Translations under genes and position numbers: made by a program
Shown here: positions 1 through 15,455 of the stretch, in pieces
How positions within the stretch are numbered: the first letter of the stretch is position 1
How the letters are laid out: each line of letters opens with the position of its first letter
Notes under the pieces: model-generated
The model's database searches: none
What the model saw: only the letters and a program-made list of their open reading frames with translations
Told to the model about the DNA's origin: nothing
NCBI GenBank assembly: GCA_016190205.1
Contig: JACPQZ010000011.1
Coordinates: 1-17,052, forward strand
Direction of reading: 5' to 3'
Length of the DNA stretch: 17,052 nt
Source of the DNA: Candidatus Omnitrophota bacterium
GTDB lineage: Bacteria; Omnitrophota; JACPQZ01

Positions 1-1317
1 GGTGGGAGGGGTGGTGTCCAAGAGGACCTCTGCCACGGCCGCGTCACTCATGCGGCCCACTGCATCGGACACTTGGAAAGTGTAGAGATTCGTACCATGC
101 GCCGAGGACACCGGAAAGGTCCAGGTGGTCGTAGGAAGGACCGAGCCCGCCTGGATTCCGTTCGCCCACAAAGCGGTGTCTGCGGGCTTTGTGCCTGCAA
201 TGGATTGCGTCGCCTCACGCGTGGGAGTTTGAACCCCTTGAACCACTGGCGCCGCAGGGTTGGGACTTAAGTCGTCGTAGATCACGGTGAATGTCACAGT
301 GCTTTGGGTAAGCCCCGTGTCTGCGGTCACGGTCACTGTGTTGGAGCCCACGGACAAGGGCACACGCTCAACGACAAAGTTCCCTTGCGCGATGCGGACC
401 CTGCCCCGCGCCACTGGGCTCGTGGCTAACGCCGCGGCGTCGTCATCGATCGTGCCCAGGATGGCGATCTCCGCTTCACTCACCGTGGCCCCGTCTAAAG
501 GCGAGAGGACACGGAGGGTAGGCGCTTCACTATCTCTTATGATGGACACAATCGCTTCGGGGCTAAAGTTTCCGGCCTCATCTTGGGCCTTAAAGCGGAA
601 GGTGTTGGTGCCTTCCTGGGGAAGGGTGACTTCATAATTCCAGGTGGTGGCGGCATCCAGGGGCACAATTTCCACCCCATCCAAAAGGATGCTCGTTCGA
701 GTGTCCTTGGCGCCTTCTATCGTCTGCGTAGAAAGAGGGGTGCGGCTGGGGACGGTAAACACCCGCGGCCTTCCGGGAGCCACAAGATCGAGGACAACAG
801 AGATTGTTTCAAAGGCCTCGTTCCCCACGTCGTCCGTGGCGTGGGCGGTTAGTTTGTTCTGGCCCTGGATGAGGACGACTCCTGGGGATAGAAACTCTAC
901 ATCCGGCCCTTGCGGGGTGACCAAACCCGGCACGGAGACCGGCTCATAGTCGGGGTTGTCTTCCTCGTTTTCAGGAATGATGGAGACCGACACCGCGACC
1001 TCATGCTCATGCTTCACCACCCCCGTCACGTTGATCTTTCCGTCCGGAGATTGAAAGGTGATCACATGACCCAGGCCCCCCTTGAGACGATAGGTTTCGC
1101 TGGTTGAGACCCCAGCCAGGTTTTCGCCCAAGGTGCCGTTAAGAACGCGATACTGCGTGGACTGGGCGGAATCCTGGGCATCGACCGGAATGAGCACCGG
1201 GACCTTGTAACGCGACTCTGCATATACAGGCGCCGTGAACACCGCGCCAAGGAGAATATTTATTATCACGACAGTTCGCAATTGCCTACTGCGGCTTATG
1301 AAACTAGTTCTAGTCAC
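1..1317 (-). CDS. Secreted bacterial Ig-like repeat protein (partial, runs off left edge)
   Basis: I translated the minus strand from a GTG codon at 1317-1315 and found no stop through position 1, giving 439 residues of an incomplete protein. The GTG overlaps the TGA of the upstream 1805-residue gene (GTGA), which implies translational coupling. The N-terminus has arginines at residues 3, 9 and 11, then a hydrophobic run ending in PVYA before ESRYK: a plausible signal peptide with cleavage near residue 33. The rest is tandem Ig-like domains. Each has the pattern hydrophobic strand, EGxNxxxFxAxDxxGN, then a short linker such as DSEAPTLRVLSPLDGATV. It looks like an adhesive or structural extracellular protein with no visible enzyme domain. 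The start is supported by the signal peptide and the overlap. No clear Shine-Dalgarno was seen. The ORF is intact and not a shadow, because the repeat register is maintained throughout. Confidence 0.85.
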   Translation of the reverse strand, partial: MTRTSFISRSRQLRTVVIINILLGAVFTAPVYAESRYKVPVLIPVDAQDSAQSTQYRVLNGTLGENLAGVSTSETYRLKGGLGHVITFQSPDGKINVTGVVKHEHEVAVSVSIIPENEEDNPDYEPVSVPGLVTPQGPDVEFLSPGVVLIQGQNKLTAHATDDVGNEAFETISVVLDLVAPGRPRVFTVPSRTPLSTQTIEGAKDTRTSILLDGVEIVPLDAATTWNYEVTLPQEGTNTFRFKAQDEAGNFSPEAIVSIIRDSEAPTLRVLSPLDGATVSEAEIAILGTIDDDAAALATSPVARGRVRIAQGNFVVERVPLSVGSNTVTVTADTGLTQSTVTFTVIYDDLSPNPAAPVVQGVQTPTREATQSIAGTKPADTALWANGIQAGSVLPTTTWTFPVSSAHGTNLYTFQVSDAVGRMSDAAVAEVLLDTTPPT

Positions 1318-4300
1318 GGCACGATCTCCGCAGGGCCTATTAAGGCCCCGTCTAAAGGAAAGGTAAACACAATCTCGGGCGCCTCGTTATCCAGGATGAT
1401 TTCGATCGTGACCACCGCGCTTAAGTTGTCCGTCAAGTCCCTCGCCTGAAGGGTGAGGGCGTTGGAGCCAGGAGCCAGCTCCAAGGCCACCGACCAATCC
1501 CGGATGATCTGCGAAGGATCCGGGTCATGCTTTACCTCGCCCACAGAAGCGCTGGTGGAGGTAATAATTACCTCGGTCGTATCCTGAAACGCCACCCCTT
1601 TCAAGGTCACGGTAGAAAAGCGCGTGCGGACAGGCGTTCCTGGGGTAATGTCCAGGGTGGATTCATCCGGAAGGAGAAGCTGGCGTGCCTCGGGGGCAGG
1701 GGGTGGGACGCCATCTTTGACAATTGCGGCCGTGGCTGGGACGCTCGCATTATCCAAAACGTCAAAGGCCGTGACTTGGACGACGTTGGCCCCTTCCGCC
1801 ATCCCCTCAATGTGACAGACCCACGTTAAGTCGGGATTTAACGTGGGGTGATCGGGATGAGCCTCGGCCGTGGAGCAGGTGACATGCAAAGAGACCGTGT
1901 CCGCCGTCGCAGTCCCGTGGAGGGCCTGGGTATCGAGACGGGTCGGGCTTGCGGGGGGGTCAATCATGGGGGCTTGGGGCCCCAGGTTATCCCGCGTGAC
2001 GTTTAAAACAAGCTCCGACGCATTGCCCAGGATATCTTGTGCCTCCAGGGAGAGGCGGTTGGCACCCTCCTCAATCGGCCAGCTATAGGAAAACGCGCCC
2101 CCTGAAAGCGGCACGGAATTTTGATTGATCGTAAGTACAGCCCCAGGGTCATCCAGGGTGCCCGTGACGGGCATGGCGCCCTCTTTTGTCGTCCAGCCGT
2201 TTTGGGGGCTCGTAAGAAAGATGCGAGGCGCGGTCGTATCCCGCTCAATCGTGACCGTGGCTGCCGTGCTGTCCGCCTTGCCGGCTGATTTTGATTTGAA
2301 GGAATAGGCGTTATCTCCTTCCACCAAGAGGACGTCCATGGTCCACGCGGTGACCTGGGAGGCCGGGACGACCTCTTCGAAACCCAAACCTGAATCCATC
2401 CAGACGGAGGTGTTGGGGGCGCGCGTGCCTGAGATCTGCTGATGATCCATCTGGGTGGGGGTTAGAACAGGGTCCACGGTGGGGGCGGGAGTCGGGAGCC
2501 CGTAGATCCAGTCGGGGATGGGAAACCCTAAGTATTCCCAGATATACTTGGTGAGCGTGGTGCCGGGGGCCGCAAGCCCTCGGGCAGGGTTTTGGACGAC
2601 CGTGTAGGCCGAGCCGTCCCACTTGGTCGTGGGCCAGGTGAAGTGGTCGGCTTCAGCTGCGTCGGCCTTAATCCTTTCCTCGTTGGGCCACGGCCAGATC
2701 GTGTCCTGGGTTAAAGTGTCATACCCCGGCTCGCCAAAAAGCGAGCCGGAGACCCCTGACTTATAAAGGATGGTGGCCCCCCGCTTGGCGCCGCCTAAGC
2801 CTGTCCCTGTATCTGGCGTTTGGACAATATACTTATACCCCGGGTCCCCCGTCTGGTAATAAGTTCCTTGCTTAAACCACTCCGGGTCGTAGCGGTTGTA
2901 CCTGACCACGTCCCCGCCCATGTTATAAGTCACCATGTCATCAAAGACCGAGTTTTGGACAGTCGTTTTGGCAAATTTATTGAGTGAGCCCGACCAGCGG
3001 TTCGTGGCGCGGTAGGCGCGGCCGACGGTCACTTGATCGATCAAGCTCGTTTTCAAGGGGTCCCCTTCACGCATTTGAATGGCCTCGCGGTTACTTAAGT
3101 CCCAGAAGACCGTGTTTAAGACGTCGTTATACCCGGCCGGGTAGTCGAAATTCAGAAATAAGCCGTGGGAGGGAAGCTTAAGAAAGAGGCTCCCCTGGAC
3201 CTTGATCCCGGAGGAAGTGCTCGGAATCAAGACGCCGTACGCTGCGCCACTATTAAAGTCAGCCAGGATCGCGTTTTGAACGAGGCTCGCCGTGGATTTA
3301 TAAAAGACGATCCCCGCATGGGACCCCCGCCCGGTGTTTCCGTCGAAGCGCACCAAGACGCGGCGCAGGATAACCTCCCTTGAGTTATCGACATAGACCC
3401 CATAATGCATGGCGCCTATGACCCAGACGTCCTCCAAAAGGATGTGGTGGCTTCCGTAGAGGATCCCGATGGGATAGCCTAAGCTGGAAGAGATGGGGAC
3501 GCCGTTTTTAACCCCGATCTCTTTAAGTTTTAAGTGGTGGCTGTTGGCGATGTAGATCCCGCCTTTCCGAAGTTTAAGGCCTTCAAGCTCGAGGTAGCTC
3601 GTCCCCTGGTAGACGCCGCTTGTTAAGGCGCCCCCTAAGTAGATAGCGCCTTCCAAGATGGCTCCTCCATCACGGTCCGCCTTTATCCTCGTATAGGCCC
3701 CCTCGGTCCCAGAGGGCGGCGACCAGCTCGTGGAGGGGGCGCTTGAGTAATAGCGGCCCAGGGGTTCGGTGTAGGTCCCGTCTAAAAGGACGAGGGTCTC
3801 CCCGCTCTTCATTCCCGTCTTTAAGGCATAGGCAAACGTCTTCCAGGGGGCCGTTCGGGTGCCGGGATTCGTATCACTTCCTGTCGGAGACAAAAAGTAC
3901 GTTGCGGCCGGCGGAGCCTCAAGGACGGTCAGGGTGAAAGTCGTAGATACATTGACGCTCCCATCCGAAACAGTGACGCCTATGGGGTAGGTTCCTTTCG
4001 TTCCGGCGGCTGGACTTATCACCATTTGGCTCCCCTCCACTCGGACCATGCCAGCCGGGGCTTGGACCGTGTAGGTCAAGGAGTCTCCGTCGGGGTCGGA
4101 GGCCTGAAGGGCAATGTTTTTTGTTTCCCCTTCCTTTAAGGTTACGCCGCTCATGGTGGGGACGAGAGGCGGGCGGTTGACATTCGTGACAAAGATGGGG
4201 AGAGTCTGTTGAGCGGCCAGGCGGCCATCTGTCGCCTCGACTGGAACTTGATAGGAACCCGAATGGGTAAATCCGGGAGCAAGACTGATGAGGTTACCCG

Positions 4301-6731
4301 TCAAGACGACAAAGGCAGGCGCGTTCAAGGCCTTGAAACTTAAGGTGTCTCCATCGATATCCCGAGCGATCAAGGGCACCATGCGCGTCTCCCCTTCATT
4401 GAGTTGAATCGTGGGGACGGGGTCTAGGACCGGGGGATCATTGACAGGTGCCACCGTAATTGCGACGGGGGCCTGGCTGCTTGATATAAGAGCATCTCGT
4501 ACCTGATAAGTGAAAGCATCCGGGCCATTGTAATTAAGGAAGGGCCTATAGCTCACCACGTTTCCCGACACCGAAAAGGTGCCGTGGCCGGGCGGGCTCG
4601 GAAATTGATAGGTGATCGAGTCGCCATCAGGATCTGACCCAGGGAGGGTGATCGATATAGGCGTGTCTTCTTGCGCCGTTACCGAGACCGGAGGCGCTAG
4701 GGGCGCGCGGTTCACGTTTGCGACATAAAGCGAGAGGGCTTGACTTACGCTCGTGGCTGCATCCGAAGCAGTTAATGTTAAGGAGTAGGAACCGCCGTCC
4801 TCGTACCCGGGTAAAAACATGAGCGTTTTATCTGCCAAAGTCAAGAAGGAGGGTTGCGGCATGACGGTCAGGCGCACGACGTCCTGGTCGGGGTCTGTCA
4901 CCGTAACCACAAGCTGCTGGACCTGGCCCTCCCCCATCGTGAAGATAGGAGGCGCCACGATCTTAGGGGGATCATTGACAGGGGCAATCTCAAGCCGGAC
5001 CGTGGCGAGGGCGCTCGTGTAGATGCCATCGGTGGCCGTGTACGTAAATTGATCGCTTCCGTTGAAATTGAGACTCGGGCTGAACTGAATAAACGGGGCT
5101 GTTCCGGAGAGGACACCATGCAGAGGCTGGGTTTGAAACGTAAACCTTAACGTGTCCCACTCGGGATCAGAAGCCTCTAAATTAAAGTAAATGGGACTAT
5201 CTTCCATAAGGCTTACCGTCTGATCCTTGACTTGAGGAGTCCCCTTGGGCGGGCCATAAACCCATTCGGGAATGGGATTACCCAGGTACTCCCAAATGTA
5301 TTTGCTTAAGGTAGTGTCGGGATCCGCAAAACCCCGGTCGGGCACATTCACAACGGTGTACGGCGAGCCGTCCCACTTCGTAGTGGGCCAGGAAAAGCCG
5401 TCAGGCTCGCGGGCATCGGCCGTGAGCCTCTGCTCATAGGGCCAGGGCCAGAGTGAGTTTTGTGTCAAAGTGTCATATCCCGGCTCGCCCCAGAGCGTGC
5501 CGGACGTGCCGTAACGCATTAAGATCGTGGCACCCCGCGTTAGCCCCCCGAGGCCAGTGCCCGTGTCGGTGGTTTCTACGAGGTATTTCAAGTTGGGCTC
5601 CCTTACCCGGTAGTATGCCCCCTTAGCCTGCCAATCCTGGTCAAAATCATTGTATTGCCATTTGTCCACCCCTTGACTTAAGTAGAGGTTGTCGTCAAAG
5701 ATCGAGTTTTGAAAGATAAAGTAGGTGCTGATTCCGGCCGAGCCAGACCAGTATTCGCTTGCCCGCTCCACACGGCCGATGGTGGCCCCGTCGACCACGG
5801 TGAGCGTGTCCCCGTCCACTTGGAGGATGGCGGCGCGGCGGGTGTTCCAGATGACTGTCTCCATGATGTCGTTATAGGCTGATGGGTACGTTTCCGTCAC
5901 GAAGAAACCGTAACCTGGGAGATTGAGGGCCAAGCACCCTACGCAGTCGACATTCACGGTGCGATACCTATTCCAGAAGCCGGTGTAGACGCCCGAATTA
6001 AAGTCCAGGCTCAAGCAGTTTTGAAGGAGGATGTCCCGGGAGTCATAGAAGACAAAACCGGCCTTGGTCTCGCGCTCGGTGTTTCCGTCGAAGCGCACCA
6101 CGACGCGCCTTAAGATGGATTCACTGGCCCTGTCAAAATAAACCCCATAGACCATGCTGCCAATGACCCAGGTGTCTTCCACGAGCACATGGTGGCTTCC
6201 GTCGGTCACGGCGATGACACTCCCGTAGCGGGAGGTGATGGCCTGACCGTTTTTAATGCCGATCCTTTTAAGTTTTACGTGGTGGGAATTGCGGACACGG
6301 ATCCCGGCTTTTTTAAGTTTTAGACCTGCGATCTCGATGTAGGAACTCCCCCGGTACACTCCGTTATCCACACTGCCCCCCAGGTAAATCCCTCCCTCAA
6401 GAACCGCTCCTCCATCGCGCTCGGCCTTGATCGAGGTGTACGCCCCATCGCTCCCATTGGGGGCCGACCACGAAGCCCAGGGGGCATTGGAATACGTTTG
6501 GCCCAGGGCCTCTGTGTAAACGCCTTCCAAAAGGATAAGCGTATCCGACCCCCTCATGCCGGTTTTAAGGGCGTAGGCAAAGGTCTTCCAGGGGGCCTCG
6601 CGGGTGCCGGGGTTTGTGTCGCTTCCCTGGGGCGAAATATAAAAGGTCGCGGCCGCGGCGGCGGTCGAAGTAAACGCGGCGCTTAAAAATACCAGGAAAC
6701 TCAAGCCCAAATAGAACGCGCCCCGTCTCAT
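1314..6731 (-). CDS. Large secreted protein: two parallel beta-helix domains, cadherin-like and Ig-like repeats
   Basis: The protein has 1805 residues. Residues 1-28 form a signal peptide (MRRG, hydrophobic core, alanine-rich end). Residues ~29-493 are a right-handed beta-helix domain of the pectate-lyase-like/DUF1565 type, opening TFYISPQGSDTNPGTREAPW with short beta-helix rungs such as NSHHVKLKRIGIKNG. Residues ~493-941 are about five cadherin-like repeats with DPDGD-type calcium-binding motifs and VNDPP or VNRPP linkers. Residues ~942-1411 are a second, clearly homologous beta-helix copy. Residues ~1411-1780 are about four Ig-like domains, followed by a short incomplete one (APEIVFTFPLDGALIGPAEIVP). 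It is probably exported and carbohydrate- or surface-associated. Catalytic activity cannot be claimed from what I see. The ATG at 6731 has a strong AAGGAG six bases upstream and overlaps the preceding stop as ATGA. The 3' end overlaps the next gene by GTGA. Confidence 0.93.
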   Translation of the reverse strand: MRRGAFYLGLSFLVFLSAAFTSTAAAAATFYISPQGSDTNPGTREAPWKTFAYALKTGMRGSDTLILLEGVYTEALGQTYSNAPWASWSAPNGSDGAYTSIKAERDGGAVLEGGIYLGGSVDNGVYRGSSYIEIAGLKLKKAGIRVRNSHHVKLKRIGIKNGQAITSRYGSVIAVTDGSHHVLVEDTWVIGSMVYGVYFDRASESILRRVVVRFDGNTERETKAGFVFYDSRDILLQNCLSLDFNSGVYTGFWNRYRTVNVDCVGCLALNLPGYGFFVTETYPSAYNDIMETVIWNTRRAAILQVDGDTLTVVDGATIGRVERASEYWSGSAGISTYFIFQNSIFDDNLYLSQGVDKWQYNDFDQDWQAKGAYYRVREPNLKYLVETTDTGTGLGGLTRGATILMRYGTSGTLWGEPGYDTLTQNSLWPWPYEQRLTADAREPDGFSWPTTKWDGSPYTVVNVPDRGFADPDTTLSKYIWEYLGNPIPEWVYGPPKGTPQVKDQTVSLMEDSPIYFNLEASDPEWDTLRFTFQTQPLHGVLSGTAPFIQFSPSLNFNGSDQFTYTATDGIYTSALATVRLEIAPVNDPPKIVAPPIFTMGEGQVQQLVVTVTDPDQDVVRLTVMPQPSFLTLADKTLMFLPGYEDGGSYSLTLTASDAATSVSQALSLYVANVNRAPLAPPVSVTAQEDTPISITLPGSDPDGDSITYQFPSPPGHGTFSVSGNVVSYRPFLNYNGPDAFTYQVRDALISSSQAPVAITVAPVNDPPVLDPVPTIQLNEGETRMVPLIARDIDGDTLSFKALNAPAFVVLTGNLISLAPGFTHSGSYQVPVEATDGRLAAQQTLPIFVTNVNRPPLVPTMSGVTLKEGETKNIALQASDPDGDSLTYTVQAPAGMVRVEGSQMVISPAAGTKGTYPIGVTVSDGSVNVSTTFTLTVLEAPPAATYFLSPTGSDTNPGTRTAPWKTFAYALKTGMKSGETLVLLDGTYTEPLGRYYSSAPSTSWSPPSGTEGAYTRIKADRDGGAILEGAIYLGGALTSGVYQGTSYLELEGLKLRKGGIYIANSHHLKLKEIGVKNGVPISSSLGYPIGILYGSHHILLEDVWVIGAMHYGVYVDNSREVILRRVLVRFDGNTGRGSHAGIVFYKSTASLVQNAILADFNSGAAYGVLIPSTSSGIKVQGSLFLKLPSHGLFLNFDYPAGYNDVLNTVFWDLSNREAIQMREGDPLKTSLIDQVTVGRAYRATNRWSGSLNKFAKTTVQNSVFDDMVTYNMGGDVVRYNRYDPEWFKQGTYYQTGDPGYKYIVQTPDTGTGLGGAKRGATILYKSGVSGSLFGEPGYDTLTQDTIWPWPNEERIKADAAEADHFTWPTTKWDGSAYTVVQNPARGLAAPGTTLTKYIWEYLGFPIPDWIYGLPTPAPTVDPVLTPTQMDHQQISGTRAPNTSVWMDSGLGFEEVVPASQVTAWTMDVLLVEGDNAYSFKSKSAGKADSTAATVTIERDTTAPRIFLTSPQNGWTTKEGAMPVTGTLDDPGAVLTINQNSVPLSGGAFSYSWPIEEGANRLSLEAQDILGNASELVLNVTRDNLGPQAPMIDPPASPTRLDTQALHGTATADTVSLHVTCSTAEAHPDHPTLNPDLTWVCHIEGMAEGANVVQVTAFDVLDNASVPATAAIVKDGVPPPAPEARQLLLPDESTLDITPGTPVRTRFSTVTLKGVAFQDTTEVIITSTSASVGEVKHDPDPSQIIRDWSVALELAPGSNALTLQARDLTDNLSAVVTIEIILDNEAPEIVFTFPLDGALIGPAEIVP
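2500..3906 (-). repeat. Internal domain repeat, copy 2 (beta-helix domain)
   Basis: This is the second copy of the beta-helix domain, about 469 residues, separated from copy 1 by the cadherin-like repeats. It is most similar at the N-terminal end (SDTNPGTR, KTFAYALKTGM) and the C-terminal end (WPTTKWDGS, KYIWEYLG). It is more diverged in the middle rungs, consistent with an old duplication. Confidence 0.9.
5254..6648 (-). repeat. Internal domain repeat, copy 1 (beta-helix domain)
   Basis: This stretch encodes about 465 residues that align end to end with the second copy at 2500-3906. Shared landmarks are SDTNPGTR.APWKTFAYALKTGM, the RDGGA.LEG.IYLGG block, RFDGNT, GEPGYDTLTQ, WPWP.E, WPTTKWDGS.YTVV and KYIWEYLG. 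It lies immediately after the signal peptide. Confidence 0.9.
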
Positions 6732-7499: not shown

Positions 7500-8399
7500 T
7501 TAATAAACTTCCAGAAGAAGCCTGCGCTGGGCCTTCAAGGTCTGGGACCAATTTTCCCCCTGGCCCAGCTCCCTTCCCCAGCTATCGATGACGGGAAGGA
7601 TGCCCGCCTCCATGCCCTTCAAGCCGCAGATATATAATAAGGAAGAGGGCTTGGCAACCGCGGGAATAAGCGCGCGCTCGTGCTGGGCCATTTTGACTTG
7701 AACATACATGCGGTTCTGACGGGTGGGCACGTGCTCCGGCATGGGATTGACTTCCTCCCGGCTTACCGCAGTAAGATAGTGGAAGTTGGGGTGTTTTTCA
7801 TAGGGCTTGATCTCGCCGTCATAGAGGACGCGGTCCTTAAACTGGGTGCCGAAGATGTGCCAGCAGCTGCCCCGGTACCCCCCCTCAAAAAGCTCCTTGA
7901 GCATCCCGCGGAAGGGGGCGATGCCTGTTCCCGTAGATAAAAAGATAAAGTCCCTGTCTTTAAAATCGGGCGGTATGAGGAAGTGGCGCCCGACAGGCCC
8001 TGTAAGTTTAACCTTGTCTCCCACCTTTAAATCACAGAGATAATTGCTGCAGACACCCGCGATATTTTTTTCCCCCGTTTTCTCATTGTCCCAGAAGTGC
8101 CGCACAACGCACAAGGACACGGTGAGGCCGTCGCCCAGGTCCCCCTTTCGGTCGGAAGCGACGGAGTAGAGTCTCAATTGTTGGGGCTTCCCTGTCTTGG
8201 GATCCGCGCCGGGGGGAATGACACCCACACTCTGGCCGGGGATGTAGCGAAAATTCGGATCCTGGTAGCGGATCACGATATGGCAAACCTGCCGCTCAAA
8301 AGGCTCCTCCGGGGCGATAAATTTGTTCTCTATCACCTCCCCGATGAGGGGGTTCGTGGCACGGTATAAATTGTTGGGTATGTCCATAATATCGGGCAT
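7500..8399 (-). CDS. Plant-type ferredoxin--NADP(+) reductase
   Basis: This is an FAD-containing oxidoreductase that moves electrons between NADPH and ferredoxin or flavodoxin. Numbered from a possible upstream ATG at 8432, RLYS at 87-90 is the FAD-binding motif. GVCSNYLCDLKVGDKVKLTGPVG-type sequence lies around 126-148. STGTGIAPFRGM (166-177) binds the pyridine nucleotide, and MYVQVKMA and CGLKGMEAGI (269-278) are typical of plastid/cyanobacterial reductases. The C-terminal EVY supplies the aromatic residue that stacks on FAD. I prefer the ATG at 8399 (299 residues) because GGGTGAG precedes it at good spacing. The ATG at 8432 abuts a 41-bp palindrome and lacks a good site. It is the last gene of the cobalamin operon, directly after cobO, suggesting a role in reducing cob(II)alamin; a general redox role is the alternative. 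Confidence 0.92.
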   Translation of the reverse strand: MPDIMDIPNNLYRATNPLIGEVIENKFIAPEEPFERQVCHIVIRYQDPNFRYIPGQSVGVIPPGADPKTGKPQQLRLYSVASDRKGDLGDGLTVSLCVVRHFWDNEKTGEKNIAGVCSNYLCDLKVGDKVKLTGPVGRHFLIPPDFKDRDFIFLSTGTGIAPFRGMLKELFEGGYRGSCWHIFGTQFKDRVLYDGEIKPYEKHPNFHYLTAVSREEVNPMPEHVPTRQNRMYVQVKMAQHERALIPAVAKPSSLLYICGLKGMEAGILPVIDSWGRELGQGENWSQTLKAQRRLLLEVY

Positions 8400-8440
8400 T
8401 TTCTCACCCGGCTCCGGTTGTGACAATGACATCTATCACG

Positions 8441-8481
8441 CAGACACACAAGGGTGTCTGACAGACACCCTTGTGTGTCTG
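8441..8481. repeat. 41-bp perfect palindrome between cobO and the reductase gene
   Basis: Two 20-base arms are perfect reverse complements around a single A at 8461. Each arm is itself an inverted repeat, CAGACAC-n6-GTGTCTG, so the DNA or RNA can fold as one long hairpin or two short ones. No T-run follows on either strand, so it is not a standard terminator. It resembles REP-like intercistronic elements. Confidence 0.85.
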
Positions 8482-8483
8482 GC

Positions 8484-9077
8484 TTAGAAATCGATGCCCA
8501 GCTGTGCCTGGATTCCCTCTTGGTAGGGGTGCTTGACGAGCCGCATGTCCGTGACGAGATCGGCCTCTTCGACGAGCTCTTTCGGGGCGTCGCGGCCGGT
8601 GATGATGCAATGGGTTTGAGGAGGCCGTTTTTTGAGCCCGGCGAGGACTTCTCCAACAGGGAGAAAATGATATTTTAGGACATAACTCAGCTCATCAAAG
8701 ACGACCAGCCGGTAGCGTGCGTCGAGCATCATCTCCATGCACTTTCCCCAGGCCCTCCGGGCGCACTCGACGTCGCGCTTAAAATCCTTTGTATCCCAGG
8801 TGAACCCCTCCCCCATGCAAAAAAAATCGAGGCGGCCTTTAAGCCCCCTCGCAAATAAAGACTCCCCTGTTTTCCACTTTCCCTTGATAAACTGGACGAC
8901 TCCTACGCGCCACCCATGGCCCAGGGCGCGGAAGACGGCCCCCAGGGCCGCGCTTGTCTTGCCCTTCCCCTCCCCCGTGTAAACGATCAGGAGCCCCTTT
9001 TTGACCGGCTTGGCCCGTTCGCGGTACGTCCGGGGGGCCCTGTCTTTTAAGGCCGCGCGCCTGCGCCCTGCTGCCAT
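8484..9077 (-). CDS. cobO: Cob(I)alamin adenosyltransferase (CobO/BtuR family)
   Basis: The enzyme transfers the 5'-deoxyadenosyl group of ATP to reduced corrinoid cobalt, making adenosylcobalamin in the cytoplasm. The length of 197 residues is normal for the CobO/BtuR/CobA family. The P-loop GEGKGKTSAALG (35-46) is followed by VVQFIKGKW, the characteristic GEGFTWDT, VVFDELSYVLKYHFL and a C-terminal HPYQEGIQAQLGIDF segment typical of the family. The ATG at 9077 has AGAAGG seven bases upstream and overlaps the 3' end of the preceding gene by 31 bases. It sits between a transcobalamin-like protein and a ferredoxin-NADP reductase, consistent with adenosylating imported corrinoid. Regulation is probably by the cobalamin riboswitch at the head of the operon, if transcripts pass the repeat at 9952-10123. 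Confidence 0.96.
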   Translation of the reverse strand: MAAGRRRAALKDRAPRTYRERAKPVKKGLLIVYTGEGKGKTSAALGAVFRALGHGWRVGVVQFIKGKWKTGESLFARGLKGRLDFFCMGEGFTWDTKDFKRDVECARRAWGKCMEMMLDARYRLVVFDELSYVLKYHFLPVGEVLAGLKKRPPQTHCIITGRDAPKELVEEADLVTDMRLVKHPYQEGIQAQLGIDF

Positions 9078-9484
9078 GCCTCGACCTTCTCCGTCACGTC
9101 CTCAAACATATATTTCCAGGCGACGCGGTCCCCCGGCTTGAGGGTTGTCCCAAAAGGGTTGACGTCCCTCGAGCCGTTTAAGAAAACTACCCACCAAACG
9201 TTGGCCCCAGGGCTTGTCGCGACATTATTAACGCTCGCCACCTCCCTCGGGTCACAGCAGATGGCGTCGTTTTTAACCTGACAGGCCTTCTTAAGAAGGC
9301 TCTCCGGGGTATCTTCCCCCGTGGCCTTAAGTTCCATAAGGATGGAGTCCTCGCCTTGAGGGCCGAAATCGACTTCCAGAGTGACAGGAAATGTGGGTTG
9401 GGATTCATCCGCACACAGGTTCGGGATGCCGGCCAGGAGAAGGGCAGTCAGAAGCCCTGAAACGAAGAATTTGCTGCGGATCAC
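9047..9484 (-). CDS. Exported DUF4430 protein (transcobalamin C-terminal-like)
   Basis: The protein has 145 residues from a GTG start (9484-9482) that directly abuts the preceding stop, with AAGG five bases upstream. Residues 1-25 are a signal peptide (MIRSKF, hydrophobic core, ...PNLCA/DES); the cysteine does not fit a lipobox well. Residues ~30-135 match the DUF4430 fold: SLLKKACQVKNDA, a middle beta segment, then VWWVVFLNGSRDVNPFG and LKPGDRVAWKYMFED, where family members carry W..yvNG and GD.VeW.Y. DUF4430 resembles the corrinoid-covering C-terminal domain of transcobalamin and intrinsic factor. Given its neighbours cobO, btuB and tonB, I infer a periplasmic corrinoid-binding protein. A CC pair (ICCD) in the middle could be structural or a cobalt ligand; this is speculation. 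Confidence 0.82.
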   Translation of the reverse strand: MIRSKFFVSGLLTALLLAGIPNLCADESQPTFPVTLEVDFGPQGEDSILMELKATGEDTPESLLKKACQVKNDAICCDPREVASVNNVATSPGANVWWVVFLNGSRDVNPFGTTLKPGDRVAWKYMFEDVTEKVEAWQQGAGARP

Positions 9485-9931
9485 TTAAACCTTAAGGGTG
9501 CTGTGGCGCCGCATCACCCACGCACGTGCCAGGGCGAAGACTGCGGCAAAGCTCAAGGTGTACCCTATTTGCCAGGCGAGGGAGATTAAGAAGTAGGGTA
9601 CGGTCGTCACGATGGACTGCCAAAGGCCGGCGGGCGTATTGGGAAACCCTTCGCACATACCGACAGCCCACGCCCCCGAGGCGATGACAAGGTGGAACAC
9701 CGGAGTGGCTGCGAGCAATCCCAGGACAAGAGGGCCCAAGCCCAGCCGGACCCTTGCCAGGCGTGCCGCGCCCACCGTGGCAAAGACCGCGAGGAGCCGC
9801 ACAGGGGTCATCGCGTCAAAGCCCAAAACAATATCCCGAACGAGCATGCCGCCCAGACCAATACCCAAAACTTCCCAGGTCTTTAAAAAGCACATCCCGA
9901 TAAGAACCGCTGCCACAATGGGGCTCAACAT
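9485..9931 (-). CDS. Small integral membrane protein, DUF6580-like; candidate corrinoid transporter
   Basis: The protein has 148 residues and about four to five membrane segments (near 3-18, 44-58, 68-92 and 107-136). The stretch MLVRDIVLGFDAMTPVRLL and the later TPAGLWQSIVTTVPYFLISLAW recall DUF6580 proteins (DLILGF..., ...aGL...YvaaiPFF), which look like ECF-transporter substrate-binding (S) components. The usual N-terminal PHPPN.xP segment seems missing, so the protein is ~25 residues short, yet the start is well supported: AAGGAG lies seven bases before the ATG at 9931. The DUF4430 gene follows with no gap. Because no btuC, btuD or btuF is present, I infer it may carry corrinoid across the inner membrane. 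The family match is from memory of the pattern and is moderate. Confidence 0.75.
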   Translation of the reverse strand: MLSPIVAAVLIGMCFLKTWEVLGIGLGGMLVRDIVLGFDAMTPVRLLAVFATVGAARLARVRLGLGPLVLGLLAATPVFHLVIASGAWAVGMCEGFPNTPAGLWQSIVTTVPYFLISLAWQIGYTLSFAAVFALARAWVMRRHSTLKV

Positions 9932-9951
9932 TTCTTTGCTCCTTCTTCACC

Positions 9952-10123
9952 CGTCATTGCGAGGTTGCCAAAGGCAACCGTGGCAATCTCAATGAGGCCA
10001 TGAGTTGCTGAACGCAACTCATAGGGCCGAATTGATCCCGAGCGCGTCATAATGAGATTGCTTCGGCCCTTCGGGCCTCGCAATGACGAGCGAGGGATCT
10101 CCTCGCGGCCTCCTCGCAATGAC
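9952..10123. repeat. Dispersed palindromic repeat inserted in the cobalamin operon
   Basis: CGTCATTGCGAGG (9952-9964) and its exact complement CCTCGCAATGACG (10076-10088) bound a 137-bp element, with a further CCTCGCAATGAC at 10112-10123. Inside are smaller hairpins: GGTTGCC/GGCAACC (9963-9979), ATGAGTTGC/GCAACTCAT (10000-10022) and GGCCC/GGGCC near 10065-10077. This CATTGCGAGG repeat type is widely scattered in many bacterial genomes. It fills the 208-bp gap between tonB and the membrane-protein gene. Confidence 0.85.
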
Positions 10124-10139
10124 AATGGATCATATCCTA

Positions 10140-10694
10140 TCATTTCGTCAGTTTAAAGACTACCGGTATTTCCAATGTGCTCACGACTGCTTTGCCAAAC
10201 CGCCGGGCAGGCTCAAAGCGCCATGACCGTGCGGTCTTCACAGCCGCCTGATCCAGGGTGGCATGCCCTGAACTTTCTTCAATTTCCACCCGGACGCTCC
10301 GTCCGTTCTCTCCCACGATGATCTGGAGAACGACCGTCCCCTCCGCTCCGATAAGGCGGGCTGCGCGGGGATACGCGGGGGGCCGGTTTTCAAGTAAGTT
10401 TGCCTGCGATGAGCTCACGACGCCTGGCGCAGGATTAAATTCAGTGCGGGCCTCTGCGGCTTTTTGGCTCACGGGTTCATGGAACAACGGCGCCGGATCT
10501 GAAACCGACTCAACTTTAGGGTACACTTCACTCTGCCGGATGGCAGCACCCGGAGTGAAGCTCGCGAGGGAAAACTCGATCGCGGAGCGGCCGGTCGCCA
10601 CCTCAACCACGGGCCGGGACATCCACTGATAGGACAGAAACCCGAAGGCTGCTCCATGAATGACCGCCGACCAGAGGAAGAAGCGTTTTTTCAC
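10140..10694 (-). CDS. tonB: TonB energy-transducing protein
   Basis: TonB spans the periplasm and couples the inner-membrane ExbB/ExbD proton-driven motor to outer-membrane receptors. The protein has 184 residues, short for TonB because the proline-rich linker is reduced. One membrane anchor lies near residues 5-22 (FFLWSAVIHGAAFGFLSY, with the SxxxH-type motif). The C-terminal domain (~103-184) carries the family signature RPPAYPRAARLIGAEGTVVL, then ESSGHATLDQAA and SWRFEPARRFGKAV. The GTG start at 10694 overlaps the btuB stop as GTGA, so it is probably translated with btuB and dedicated to it. ExbB/ExbD are not in the window. Confidence 0.93.
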   Translation of the reverse strand: MKKRFFLWSAVIHGAAFGFLSYQWMSRPVVEVATGRSAIEFSLASFTPGAAIRQSEVYPKVESVSDPAPLFHEPVSQKAAEARTEFNPAPGVVSSSQANLLENRPPAYPRAARLIGAEGTVVLQIIVGENGRSVRVEIEESSGHATLDQAAVKTARSWRFEPARRFGKAVVSTLEIPVVFKLTK

Positions 10695-12577
10695 AGCTCG
10701 ATCTTGGCCCCGCCGTAAAAAGCGGCTCCCGCGTTGCGAAAGCCGCTTTCGACGATTTCCTGATTAAAAACGTTCTCCACCCGGAACCATACCCCAAAAT
10801 CTTCCGTCCAGTCGAAGGCGAGGCGCGCATCCGCCTTGGTGTAGGACGCGGCCTCAAACAGGTCCGACGTAAAGTTATCCAGGTTAAAAATTCGGGTTGG
10901 TTCGTCACCCTTGTGCACGACGTCCACCGTAAGTTTGAAGCGCTCTAAAAATTCAATGTCGGCGCCGGCCGTGAGGTACGTATGGGGCACATTTTCGAGA
11001 CCACCCCCGTCCATGCGTCCGTCCGTGCGCGTATAGGTGGCGAATAGCGATAGCTCATCTGACGGCCACCAGCGGGCCTCGAGCTCAACCCCGCGCGTGT
11101 GCCCGCCGTTCACATTGGCGTAGCCGGCGTCGCGGAAGAGAATGCGCTTGGAATAATCGTATCGAAAGTATGTGCCCGTGAGCTTAACGGAGTCCGACCA
11201 GAGCTTCTGCTCAAGACCCGCGTCCCAGCTCGTCCCCCTTTCCGGCTTAAGGCCGGGATTGCCGAAGTTAAACACGGTTCCGTCGGACGCCGTGAAACGG
11301 CCGAAGAGCTCAAAAAGAGAGGGCTCGCGAAAGCCCGTCGCGGCGTGGCCCTTAAGACGCGTGCCGGTCTTATCAAAGGAATACGAGGCCGCCCCCTCGG
11401 CGCTTTCATACGTGTGGGCCGCTTCATGGTGTCCCACGCGGCCCCCGAGGGATACATTCAGATTCTCGTCCAGCATCGACAGCCGGTTCTCAAGGTATGC
11501 GGCGTAACGGTAGAGATTGAAGTGATCCTCTACGGGCGGGACCGTTTGGGAGAGCCACTCGCGCTCGTATTCCCCTCCCAGGGTGATCGAATACGCATTG
11601 GACAGGATGACATTCGCCTGGTATTCAATATTTTGGGTATTGCCGTCGAACTCGCTGTCGTCTGAGACAGGATCTCCCGCATCTACCCCGCGGACAAAGC
11701 GCCGGTCGGTGTCCACAAACCCCACGCGCACGACCTGTTCTAGAGAGTCCGAGGGGCGGTTCCGGATGAGGCCGCTATAATGGAGGAGCCGGGTCTTGCG
11801 CCAGTCGTTTGGATCGTTCGTGTCCTCGTTGAAAACGCCGCCCAAAATCTGCGGGGAGTCATTGAGGTCGCTGTCCGCGTAATCGGCATTGATGAGAAAG
11901 CGCAGTTCGAGCTTGGGGTCCGGCACGTATCCTAGGTTTCCTGAATAGCTGTCCGTGGAGTAGCCGTCGTTTTCCCTTAAGCCCTTGGAGGTGAGGCGCG
12001 TGTACCCTGTGAAATAGTCGAGTCCTGCTTGGGCGCCGGAGACCTGGTATGTCTGGCGCCACGTGTGGTGGGTGCCGCCCTCCACACGAGTTGAGAGGCG
12101 CGGCGGACCGGCCTCCCCCCGCCTTGGCCGGATATTGATGACTCCACCCATGGCCCTCGAGCCATAGAGCGTGCTGGAACCGCCGCGGATGACCTCTATT
12201 TGATCCACGTCATCCACCAGAAGGTCCTCAATGAAAGGAGTCACGCTCCCCTGGGGATCGGAAGGGTCCCGGAGAGGCATGCCCTCCAGCAGCACCGCAG
12301 TGTCGAAGGAGCGCGTCCCTCGTATACGGATCGTGGCGAGCTTTCCAGCCGCTCCCAGTTGTTGGACGCGGACCCCGGGCACATCTCTTAGGGACTCCAC
12401 AATAGAAATGGACCCCTCGTTCTCAATATCGTCTTGAGAGATGACGGACACTGACTTTCCTATCCGCTCAAGGGGTTCCTCCACGCGTGAGGCCGTAACC
12501 ACGATGGGCTCTTCGAGAGCAAAGGCGGGCAGGGGTGAGGCAACAGAAAGTATGATGAGCGAGAGTGCACGGCGCAT
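10691..12577 (-). CDS. btuB: TonB-dependent outer-membrane receptor, BtuB-type (vitamin B12)
   Basis: The protein has 628 residues. Residues 1-20 are a signal peptide. A TonB box lies at ~23-31 (EPIVVTASR). The plug domain (~30-155) carries SVSVISQDDIE, RDVPGVRVQQ, IRIRGTRSFDTAVLLEGMPL and IEVIRGGSSTLYGSRAMGGVINI. The remainder is a 22-strand-type beta-barrel with alternating aromatic strands (NPGLKPERGTSWDAGLEQKL is a typical late-barrel motif). The final residue is Leu rather than the common Phe or Trp. B12 as substrate is inferred from BtuB-like length and plug sequence and, strongly, from the cobalamin riboswitch immediately upstream and the cob genes around it. GAGGA lies eight bases before the ATG and is buried in the riboswitch expression-platform hairpin. 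The stop overlaps tonB. Confidence 0.93.
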   Translation of the reverse strand: MRRALSLIILSVASPLPAFALEEPIVVTASRVEEPLERIGKSVSVISQDDIENEGSISIVESLRDVPGVRVQQLGAAGKLATIRIRGTRSFDTAVLLEGMPLRDPSDPQGSVTPFIEDLLVDDVDQIEVIRGGSSTLYGSRAMGGVINIRPRRGEAGPPRLSTRVEGGTHHTWRQTYQVSGAQAGLDYFTGYTRLTSKGLRENDGYSTDSYSGNLGYVPDPKLELRFLINADYADSDLNDSPQILGGVFNEDTNDPNDWRKTRLLHYSGLIRNRPSDSLEQVVRVGFVDTDRRFVRGVDAGDPVSDDSEFDGNTQNIEYQANVILSNAYSITLGGEYEREWLSQTVPPVEDHFNLYRYAAYLENRLSMLDENLNVSLGGRVGHHEAAHTYESAEGAASYSFDKTGTRLKGHAATGFREPSLFELFGRFTASDGTVFNFGNPGLKPERGTSWDAGLEQKLWSDSVKLTGTYFRYDYSKRILFRDAGYANVNGGHTRGVELEARWWPSDELSLFATYTRTDGRMDGGGLENVPHTYLTAGADIEFLERFKLTVDVVHKGDEPTRIFNLDNFTSDLFEAASYTKADARLAFDWTEDFGVWFRVENVFNQEIVESGFRNAGAAFYGGAKIEL

Positions 12578-13009: not shown

Positions 13010-13750
13010 TTAGCCTGTTGCCAGGGACACCCCGAACAACATCAGAACCTCCGTCAACTCGCCTGCGGCTCCCAGGGCATCGCCAGTCACGCCTCCCAGG
13101 GTACGTCTGAAGACCGAGCGTAAGGCGAGGCCTGTGACCATCGAGGCGACAACGAGTCCAAGGCCAAGCCGTCCAAGTGCAAACCATGAAACAGGCAGGA
13201 TCATCGCCGTGGCCGCAACCAGGGCAAGGGGATGAGCGAAGCGCACAAATGCTGCTGCGGTTCCCGGTCCGGATCGGGCATAAGGTAACGTCGTCCCAAG
13301 GAGCACCATGGCATAACGGCCAACGCACGGTGTCAGGAGAAGCGCTCGCATCATCGCGGCCCGTGGAAGGCTGCTGAGAAGCGCAAACTTCCCCAGGAGG
13401 AGCACCATTAACCCCACCACGGCCATGGCACCCATATGCGGGTCCTTCATGATGCGTAGACGTTCTGCAGGCGTACGGCCTGCGTAGAGTCCGTCACACA
13501 CATCACCGAAGCCGTCGAGATGGATAGCTCCGGTGAGTATGATCCATGTGAGCAGCACGCAGGCGCCAGTCACTAGCGGCGGAACCCATTGAGCGGTGAA
13601 GACGTAAACCGCGACTAGGACGCCCCCGATGAGTAGACCGACCGGTGGAAACCAAAGGAAGGACCCGCCGAGTTCGGTCTCCTGAACTTCGCCTCTTGGC
13701 CCGAACGGTAAGATGGTCAAGCATCCCAAGGCAACCTGTAGCCGCCTCAT
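13010..13750 (-). CDS. cobS: Adenosylcobinamide-GDP ribazoletransferase (cobalamin synthase)
   Basis: CobS joins adenosylcobinamide-GDP to alpha-ribazole (phosphate) at the inner membrane, the last step of nucleotide-loop assembly. The length of 246 residues is normal. The signature LTGAIHLDGFGDVCDGLYAG (~69-88) carries the acidic, Mg-binding residues, followed by KDPHMGAMAVVGLMVLLLGKFALL. Several hydrophobic helices follow, and the GGVTGDALGAAGELTEVLMLF end is characteristic. The ATG at 13750 overlaps the cobT stop (ATGA). It is the last gene of cobU-cobT-cobS, and no terminator is visible before the next promoter. Confidence 0.95.
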   Translation of the reverse strand: MRRLQVALGCLTILPFGPRGEVQETELGGSFLWFPPVGLLIGGVLVAVYVFTAQWVPPLVTGACVLLTWIILTGAIHLDGFGDVCDGLYAGRTPAERLRIMKDPHMGAMAVVGLMVLLLGKFALLSSLPRAAMMRALLLTPCVGRYAMVLLGTTLPYARSGPGTAAAFVRFAHPLALVAATAMILPVSWFALGRLGLGLVVASMVTGLALRSVFRRTLGGVTGDALGAAGELTEVLMLFGVSLATG

Positions 13751-14805
13751 GTCACCTTTCCAGCTACTCCGGCTTCTTCAAACGTCGTCATTTCAGTGAG
13801 CACCTTACACGCGGCTTCAGCCAAGGATATGGCGAGCGCCGCTCCTGTCCCCTCCCCAAGCCGCAAGTCCAAATCCAGAAGAGGCTTAAGCCCCAGAGAC
13901 TCAAGGACCCTGCAATGTCCTGGTTCCTGAGAGAGATGAGAGGCGAGGAGATAGTTTTTGACGCGGGACTCAAGGCCTACAGCAATCAGTGCGGCCGCCC
14001 CTGAAATGAATCCATCCACGACCACTGGAAGCCTCGCCTGTGCGCCTCCGAGGATGACCCCGACCAATCCCGCAATCTCAAATCCGCCCACCTTGGTGAG
14101 CACGTCAAGCGGATCCGAAGGATCCGGCATGTTCACCGCGAGTGCTTGCTGAATCGCATAGAGTTTTCTGGCATACGTGGAGTCATCAATCCCCGTGCCC
14201 CGACCGGTCACTTGTTCGACCGGTGTACCGGTCATGGCCGCCGTAATGGCACTGCTGGCTGTCGTATTTCCAATCCCCATGTCCCCGGTTCCGATGATGT
14301 CCACGCCGCGGGCGACCTCGTGCACGACGATGTCACGCCCCGTTTGAATCGCAGCACACGCCTGTTCAGTTGTCATCGCCGGACCCTGAGTGATATTCCG
14401 TGTGCCATACCCGATCTTTCGTGAGACGAGATCCGGATGAGACGGAAGATCCCCCGCCACCCCCATATCAACGACGACAACTCGCGCCCCCACATGCCGT
14501 GCCAGGACATTGATCCCCGCTCCGCCCCGAAGGAAATTGGCGACCATCTGCTGGGTGACGACTTGGGGATAGGCGCTGACACCTGCTTGAGCGACCCCAT
14601 GGTCGGCAGCCATCGTGATGATGACTTTCTGGGACAAGCGGGGAGTGGCGGTGCGGGTGATCCCGACGATCTGTTTGGCAAGTGATTCGAGCCTGCCCAG
14701 GCTTCCCAGGGGTTTCGTCAGATGATCCAGGCGGGCCTGGGCCTGCTGCATCAGACTGTGTTCCACGTCTTCAATCTGAATGTCAAGCTGTGACGAGAGA
14801 CGCAT
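13747..14805 (-). CDS. cobT: Nicotinate-nucleotide--dimethylbenzimidazole phosphoribosyltransferase
   Basis: CobT activates the lower-ligand base (dimethylbenzimidazole or another benzimidazole, purine or phenol) by transferring phosphoribose from nicotinate mononucleotide, giving alpha-ribazole phosphate. The protein has 352 residues, normal length. Motifs: KPLGSLGRLE (~31-40), TMAADHGVAQAGVSAYPQ, NFLRGGAGINVLAR, DIIGTGDMGIGNTTASSAI and the catalytic loop RLGEGTGAALA, whose Glu at about residue 318 matches the catalytic Glu of the Salmonella enzyme. The ATG at 14805 has AGGAG six bases upstream and lies 23 bases inside the end of cobU. TTAA is much scarcer here than in the flanking operon. 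Confidence 0.97.
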   Translation of the reverse strand: MRLSSQLDIQIEDVEHSLMQQAQARLDHLTKPLGSLGRLESLAKQIVGITRTATPRLSQKVIITMAADHGVAQAGVSAYPQVVTQQMVANFLRGGAGINVLARHVGARVVVVDMGVAGDLPSHPDLVSRKIGYGTRNITQGPAMTTEQACAAIQTGRDIVVHEVARGVDIIGTGDMGIGNTTASSAITAAMTGTPVEQVTGRGTGIDDSTYARKLYAIQQALAVNMPDPSDPLDVLTKVGGFEIAGLVGVILGGAQARLPVVVDGFISGAAALIAVGLESRVKNYLLASHLSQEPGHCRVLESLGLKPLLDLDLRLGEGTGAALAISLAEAACKVLTEMTTFEEAGVAGKVT

Positions 14806-15370
14806 GTGCGCTCCTGCGAGAGGACGAGCGCGCTTTGATCAGGGCGGGGATTCCCGCCACGAGCAGATACACTTCGTCGGCGAGGGCGGCGGCGATCTGA
14901 TTGGTCAGGCCGGCCAGGTCACGAAATCGCCGGCCCATCGGGAACTCGGGCACGATACCGGAACCGACTTCATTCGTCACCAGGATCACAGGATAGGGCG
15001 TGCGGCGAAGGACGTGACACAGGCGACGAACCTGCTGCTCAATCCTCGCATCTGACTGACCAGTCACCAAGAGCTGGGAGACATACATTGTGAGACAATC
15101 GAGAATCAGCCCGTCGGATTTCCCGTTTAGCTGCGCAACAACCTTCGCGGGATCTCGTGGGTGCTCGATGGTCCTCCAATGCGCGGGTCGGTGCCGTCGG
15201 TGGTGAGCAATTCGCTGCCGCATTTCCCGATCGGCTGCCTTGCACGTGGCGAGGTAGACGATGCCTTGACCACAGCGCTTGGCCAGCTCCACCGCAAACC
15301 GGCTTTTCCCGCTACGCGTCCCTCCAGTGATGAGAATGAGACGCCCCTTCTGGTTCCTTGGTAGTTTCAT
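14783..15370 (-). CDS. cobU: Bifunctional adenosylcobinamide kinase / adenosylcobinamide-phosphate guanylyltransferase
   Basis: CobU phosphorylates adenosylcobinamide and then transfers GMP to it, so it allows salvage of incomplete corrinoids. Counted from the ATG at 15370 (195 residues): P-loop GGTRSGKS at 16-23; HHRRHRPAHW around 56-65 with the histidine that carries GMP; DCLTMYVSQLL at 91-101; TNEVGSGIVP at 132-141; and RRFRDLAGLTNQIAA near 147-161. The reading frame stays open upstream to a GTG at 15421, but that extension would translate the terminator hairpin at 15392-15417 and adds no family sequence, so I choose 15370. The ribosome-binding site there is weak. The 3' end overlaps cobT by 23 bases. 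Confidence 0.93.
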   Translation of the reverse strand: MKLPRNQKGRLILITGGTRSGKSRFAVELAKRCGQGIVYLATCKAADREMRQRIAHHRRHRPAHWRTIEHPRDPAKVVAQLNGKSDGLILDCLTMYVSQLLVTGQSDARIEQQVRRLCHVLRRTPYPVILVTNEVGSGIVPEFPMGRRFRDLAGLTNQIAAALADEVYLLVAGIPALIKARSSSRRSAHASLVTA

Positions 15371-15391
15371 GGCAAGACGCTTCAGGGCAAC

Positions 15392-15417
15392 AAAAAACCC
15401 GCTGACGAAGGCGGGTT
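15392..15417 (-). terminator. Terminator hairpin in the cobU leader (attenuator candidate)
   Basis: On the minus strand AACCCGC and GCGGGTT pair around CTTCGTCA and run into six T (15397-15392). It lies ~45 bases after the predicted cobU transcription start (15462) and 21 bases before the cobU ATG, so it would stop transcription before the operon unless prevented. No T-run exists on the plus side. Confidence 0.75.
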
Positions 15418-15455
15418 GCACCCTCTTGCTTCACCCTCCGCCAGAAGAATCCTGA

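Follow-up and report, generated by a model that had tools for sequence, protein, structure and literature searches.

The window analysed here, 17,052 nt long, is a whole contig from the assembly of a Candidatus Omnitrophota bacterium (1.65 Mb, 76 contigs, 92.8% complete); the relatives retrieved by name are likewise all Candidatus Omnitrophota. Its minus strand carries, in this order, cobU-cobT-cobS, a cobalamin riboswitch, btuB, tonB, a gene for a DUF6580 membrane protein, a gene for a DUF4430-like protein, cobO, and a ferredoxin-NADP reductase-like gene (Table 1). The cobU-cobT-cobS group (13010-15421) shares this strand and precedes the riboswitch. For the btuB-like protein, the best NCBIfam match is TonB-B12 (TIGR01779, 142 bits), which falls under the cut-off of that model. 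The TAA stop codon of the DUF6580 gene directly abuts the GTG start of the DUF4430 gene. The coordinates and the profile matches agree with the original prediction of a riboswitch-btuB-tonB-DUF6580-DUF4430-cobO order with a gapless middle pair. Neither protein of this pair matched an NCBIfam model, and no mention of DUF6580 was found in the open-access literature searched.

Table 1. Features of the B12 gene group in the window
Feature	Position	Strand	Evidence and remarks
cobO/btuR corrinoid adenosyltransferase	8484-9077	-	PF02572 211 bits; TIGR00708 over cut-off
Exported DUF4430-like protein, 145 aa	9047-9484	-	PF14478 20.2 bits, cut-off 23.8
DUF6580 (PF20221) membrane protein, 148 aa	9485-9931	-	PF20221 40.8 bits, cut-off 27
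Repeat element, MITE-like	9945-10125		Inverted-repeat ends; between tonB and the DUF6580 gene
tonB-like protein	10140-10694	-	PF03544 73.7 bits
btuB-like TonB-dependent receptor	10691-12577	-	Plug and beta-barrel domains
Cobalamin riboswitch RF00174	12683-12901	-	122.1 bits, E 1.1e-30, complete; upstream of btuB
cobS	13010-13750	-	PF02654 167.7 bits; TIGR00317 over cut-off
cobT	13747-14805	-	TIGR03160 464 bits, over cut-off
cobU	14783-15421	-	PF02283 197.9 bits; NF004469 over cut-off

Directly after cobO lies the reductase gene (7500-8432), which resembles cyanobacterial PetH, and a perfect 20-bp inverted repeat (8441-8481) stands between the two. The PetH-like reductase is a possible source of reductant for corrinoid adenosylation, or it may be unrelated. 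The region beside the B12 operon (1-6731) encodes two large exported repeat proteins, of at least 439 and 1805 aa.

The combination of cobO, cobU, cobT, and cobS without CbiC is the gene set expected of corrinoid salvage. Because all four genes are present and CbiC was not found in the source genome (92.8% complete), the organism most likely salvages corrinoids, as judged from its gene content. The usual inner-membrane importers were also searched for in this genome. PF01497 (BtuF) had no match in its 76 contigs (92.8% complete), and neither did PF02361 (EcfT/CbiQ) at the same completeness. The sole FecCD (BtuC) match, at 30.9 bits, is a 274-aa permease adjoining a ZnuA-like binding protein; it was rejected as a BtuC, since it appears to be ZnuB-like, a family assigned by reading the sequence. 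SbmA/BacA was considered as an alternative importer, and none was found in the source genome. The original prediction had supposed that BtuF and BtuCD are replaced here, and no complete btuFCD set was indeed found.

The short DUF6580 protein and the adjoining repeat

The window DUF6580 aligns to positions 29-157 of the 162 positions of PF20221 and begins where helix 2 of its relatives begins. It had been predicted to lack the usual N-terminus of its family, and TM1 is indeed missing from the alignment. In terms of the model of L112, a full-length relative, the missing part corresponds to TM1 (helix 3-18) and loop 1, so that the window protein is without helix 1 of the six helices found in its relatives.

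The gap of about 208 nt between tonB and the DUF6580 gene is mostly filled by the repeat element, which is 181 nt long and ends about 20 nt before the DUF6580 ATG. The element has 21 matches in the genome, the best other copy being 98% identical over 124 nt. Insertion of the repeat with loss of TM1 would be a natural reading of this arrangement. Because TM1 is missing and the gene abuts a multicopy repeat, the window copy may be truncated or impaired. It could even be a decaying gene cut short by the repeat, with corrinoid uptake impaired or carried out by other means, as both the loss of TM1 with loop 1 and the position of the element just before the start codon would suggest. Nevertheless, the reading frame runs uninterrupted for 148 codons and is preceded by a Shine-Dalgarno-like sequence, AGAAGGAG, upstream of the ATG. 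From helix 2 onward, the protein keeps the residues that are invariant in its subclass; the exceptions are R139 and some further residues, conserved in eight of the nine sequences. Moreover, the DUF6580 proteins of three other loci (L036, L038, and L039) also start after TM1 and are encoded inside riboswitch-led operons. Decay of the window copy is regarded as a minor but real possibility, and it is compatible with the family-level explanation developed below.

Predicted folds and conserved residues

The fold of DUF6580 was inferred via L112, which is 35% identical to the window protein. Its model, built on nine sequences, has six helices, a pLDDT of 86.7, and a pTM of 0.77. In the Foldseek search, the best seven rows were all S-components, with probabilities of 0.84-1.00 and E-values of 0.21 or worse. 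In a second structural alignment, the best 22 chains were S-components or CbiM/NikM-type relatives (Z 10.2-13.7), and the first unrelated chain followed at Z 9.5. BtuM was among these chains, with Z 11.4 and an rmsd of 3.4 over 155 residues for 8ovv and Z 11.2 for 8c7p. Since middling Z-scores can arise by chance between helical bundles, the assessment leans on the unanimous top rows and the full-length coverage. On the basis of these consistent hits and the second alignment, L112 is modelled as having the ECF S-component fold, which is also the BtuM fold, and the predicted likeness to S-components is borne out at the level of the model. At the level of sequence, a PDB search with the DUF6580 profile returned no chain at E <= 10, BtuM included.

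BtuM of Thiobacillus denitrificans is a solitary S-component-like B12 importer, occurs in organisms without EcfT, and is functional upon expression in E. coli, a host that lacks an ECF module (PMC6072759). Its invariant Cys80, located in loop 3, is a cobalt ligand (PMC6072759). DUF6580 resembles BtuM in the six-helix S-component fold of the L112 model, in the lack of EcfT in the source organism, and in the conservation of a cysteine in a divergent subclass. This subclass comprises the window protein and those of L033-L035, L037, L040, and L041, and, more distantly, L036, L038, and L039. The two families differ in that no sequence relation is detectable by the PDB search, the window copy is without TM1, the subclass cysteine C116 lies in loop 5 instead of loop 3, and canonical DUF6580 lacks this cysteine. 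The match with BtuM is structural, and by analogy DUF6580 may work like BtuM.

When S-component topology is assumed, subclass-invariant residues such as G60, R68, G109, W111, and C116 are placed by the model on the expected periplasmic side. C116 is invariant in nine subclass sequences and is, as a conjecture, a candidate cobalt ligand there. In canonical DUF6580, H59 occupies the loop 3 position and is 98% conserved; it may, again as a conjecture, act as the cobalt ligand that C116 would provide in the subclass.

The DUF4430-like protein scores 20.2 bits against PF14478, below the cut-off of 23.8, and its close homologues reach 27.9 and 28.4 bits. A PDB sequence search with the protein and its profile gave no match at E <= 10. 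Its model (pLDDT 79.6) matched the beta domain of haptocorrin, intrinsic factor, and transcobalamin in Foldseek with E-values of 1.7e-5 to 4.7e-4. In the second alignment, the best 15 chains all belonged to this fold family (Z 11.3-12.6), and the next chain, an unrelated one, had Z 8.1. The resemblance to the C-terminal domain of transcobalamin, which had been predicted from the sequence, is thus supported by the modelled fold. This beta domain (DUF4430, SLBB superfamily; PMC1796856) is accompanied in the known proteins by an alpha/alpha toroid domain; the window protein has no such domain and carries a CCDPRE motif common to its Omnitrophota relatives. Burroughs et al. (2007) predicted B12 scavenging by bacterial transcobalamin-like proteins encoded beside CbiO/CbiQ genes in organisms without B12 synthesis (PMC1796856). 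These Gram-positive operons resemble the window in pairing an exported transcobalamin-like protein with an ECF-type system where B12 synthesis is lacking. They differ in that the window organism has BtuB/TonB and an outer membrane, and its genome has no CbiQ/EcfT.

Distribution of DUF6580 and BtuC in Omnitrophota

The survey covered 285 Omnitrophota genomes, with DUF6580 counted at the PF20221 cut-off and FecCD at E < 1e-30. DUF6580 occurred in 81 genomes and FecCD in 134, and the two were largely complementary: 77 genomes had DUF6580 only, 130 had FecCD only, and 4 had both (Fisher p = 6e-22). Among the 233 riboswitch-bearing genomes, the corresponding numbers were 72, 121, and 4 (p = 1.3e-27). 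A further 36 riboswitch-bearing genomes have neither DUF6580 nor BtuC. Shared ancestry was allowed for by shuffling the labels within ten families; three within-family co-occurrences were observed vs 22.9 expected, and none of the 200,000 shuffles gave a number as low. Within a single genus, DUF6580 is found in five genomes and FecCD in ten, and no genome has both. FecCD in Omnitrophota is BtuC-like by position: where a riboswitch is listed for the genome, 67 of 79 FecCD genes are found no more than 12 kb away from it, and the other 12 are on other contigs. For roughly one in four of the Omnitrophota sampled, DUF6580 is the likely substitute for BtuCD.

These counts bear on what DUF6580 might carry. 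S-components serve many substrates, and cobT and cobS are present in the window, so DUF6580 might import another small molecule of the B12 pathway, such as the lower ligand base or alpha-ribazole, and not a corrinoid. This would leave 77 genomes without a recognised inner-membrane corrinoid importer, and it would not explain why BtuC is replaced within families and even within one genus; we consider it quite improbable. Import of cobalt under B12 riboswitch control, as by CbiM, is suggested by the kinship of CbiM with S-components and by its place among the fold matches of the L112 model. However, CbiC was found in only 12 of the 285 genomes, two of which have DUF6580. The other 79 of the 81 DUF6580 genomes, the source genome included, have no CbiC and probably build no corrin ring, so that they would need a source of corrin and not cobalt for ring synthesis. 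In addition, EcfT (PF02361), or CbiQ, the partner of such a system, is absent from 58 of 78 DUF6580 genomes. Cobalt import thus seems very remote. Where EcfT is present, in 20 of those 78 genomes, DUF6580 could work with an ECF module instead.

The gene neighbourhoods show a wide link with B12 uptake. Within 4 kb and on the strand of the DUF6580 gene, 59 of 71 loci have a cobalamin-class riboswitch, 60 a TonB-dependent receptor, and 57 both; in 12 loci, no such riboswitch was found within this range. Two layouts are present. The first, found at 48 loci (most of L048-L103 together with L042 and L043), has the riboswitch on the 3' side of DUF6580, in almost every case directly in the interval that separates DUF6580 from the receptor gene, so DUF6580 itself is not under that riboswitch. 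The second, found at 11 loci, places DUF6580 3' of the receptor as well as of the riboswitch; it is the arrangement of the window and of the divergent subclass. Nine loci without BtuB or a riboswitch nearby (one of them left out of the listing) had no common alternative partner, and some are at contig ends. A scan of the collection with four query sequences gave eight loci, all in Omnitrophota, and plasmids queried with a canonical DUF6580 gave no match.

The position of DUF6580 5' of the receptor's riboswitch in most genomes, outside its control, could also point to an accessory or regulatory membrane protein, the true inner-membrane importer being an unrecognised protein encoded elsewhere. 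Loss of an accessory whenever BtuC is present would not be expected, and the lack of SbmA/BacA and EcfT matches in the source genome also speaks against this; such a role is judged unlikely.

The pairing with DUF4430 is narrower. DUF4430 was significant in 7 of 10 divergent-subclass genomes vs none of 71 canonical DUF6580 genomes (p = 3.5e-8). The common operon of the subclass is riboswitch-btuB-DUF4430-ExbD-TonB-DUF6580, and both genes occurred together in seven of the eight loci from the four-query scan of named records. The predicted recurrence of the pair at B12 loci therefore holds for DUF6580 widely and for the DUF4430 partnership within the divergent subclass, and not in canonical genomes. 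Five genomes (G072, G255, G220, G061, and G059) carry DUF4430 and BtuC together on one contig. Because it occurs beside BtuC as well, DUF4430 is better seen as an accessory of B12 loci than as a dedicated BtuF substitute. Hence, of the proposal that the pair replaces BtuF and BtuCD, the part concerning DUF6580 and BtuCD is supported by the mutual exclusion and the modelled fold. As its own modelled fold suggests, DUF4430 would bind corrinoid in an accessory role, and it may or may not stand in for BtuF.

In two subclass loci, L040 (5938-6846) and L041 (7659-8585), whose genomes have no BtuCD, a gene for a BtuF-like PF01497 protein separates DUF6580 from cobO. This protein starts at its domain with no evident signal peptide and is possibly cytoplasmic. 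In two divergent operons (L041:6133-6849 and L033:5688-6494), DUF4430 is followed by a protein with weak carboxypeptidase-regulatory-like matches.

A proposed route for corrinoid salvage

Taken together, the locus is probably an operon for the salvage of corrinoids (B12 and its precursors), in which DUF6580, as an S-component-like importer, carries out the inner-membrane step in place of BtuCD. This explanation is built on the computed gene order, its recurrence, the exclusion of BtuC, the absence of known alternatives, and the predicted folds; from these we infer corrinoid binding, transport, its direction, and a hand-over between DUF4430 and DUF6580. BtuB and TonB would bring the corrinoid across the outer membrane, and DUF4430, resembling the transcobalamin beta domain, would hold it in the periplasm. 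DUF6580 would then move it across the inner membrane, in the source organism apparently without an ECF module, by analogy with BtuM. Finally, CobO, CobU, CobT, and CobS would adenosylate the corrinoid and complete the nucleotide loop. DUF6580 is thereby proposed for the same step as the BtuFCD ABC importer, inner-membrane corrinoid uptake downstream of BtuB; it differs in its fold and in its complementary distribution, and the source genome has no BtuC or BtuF homologue.

A stronger form of this proposal is put forward tentatively, at somewhat less than an even chance. A five-helix S-component-like protein without TM1 might import corrinoid alone, with no ATPase, when fed by a transcobalamin-like periplasmic carrier, and DUF6580 overall might have been recruited independently, and widely, in place of BtuCD.

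With the proposed salvage role, DUF6580, a curated but functionally unassigned Pfam family, gains a specific and testable function in a phylum that mostly appears dependent on external corrinoid, and a transcobalamin-like domain is linked to the TonB-dependent B12 route. If DUF6580 transports alone, it would provide a second family beside BtuM for the question of ATP-free transport of a large cofactor by a solitary S-component.
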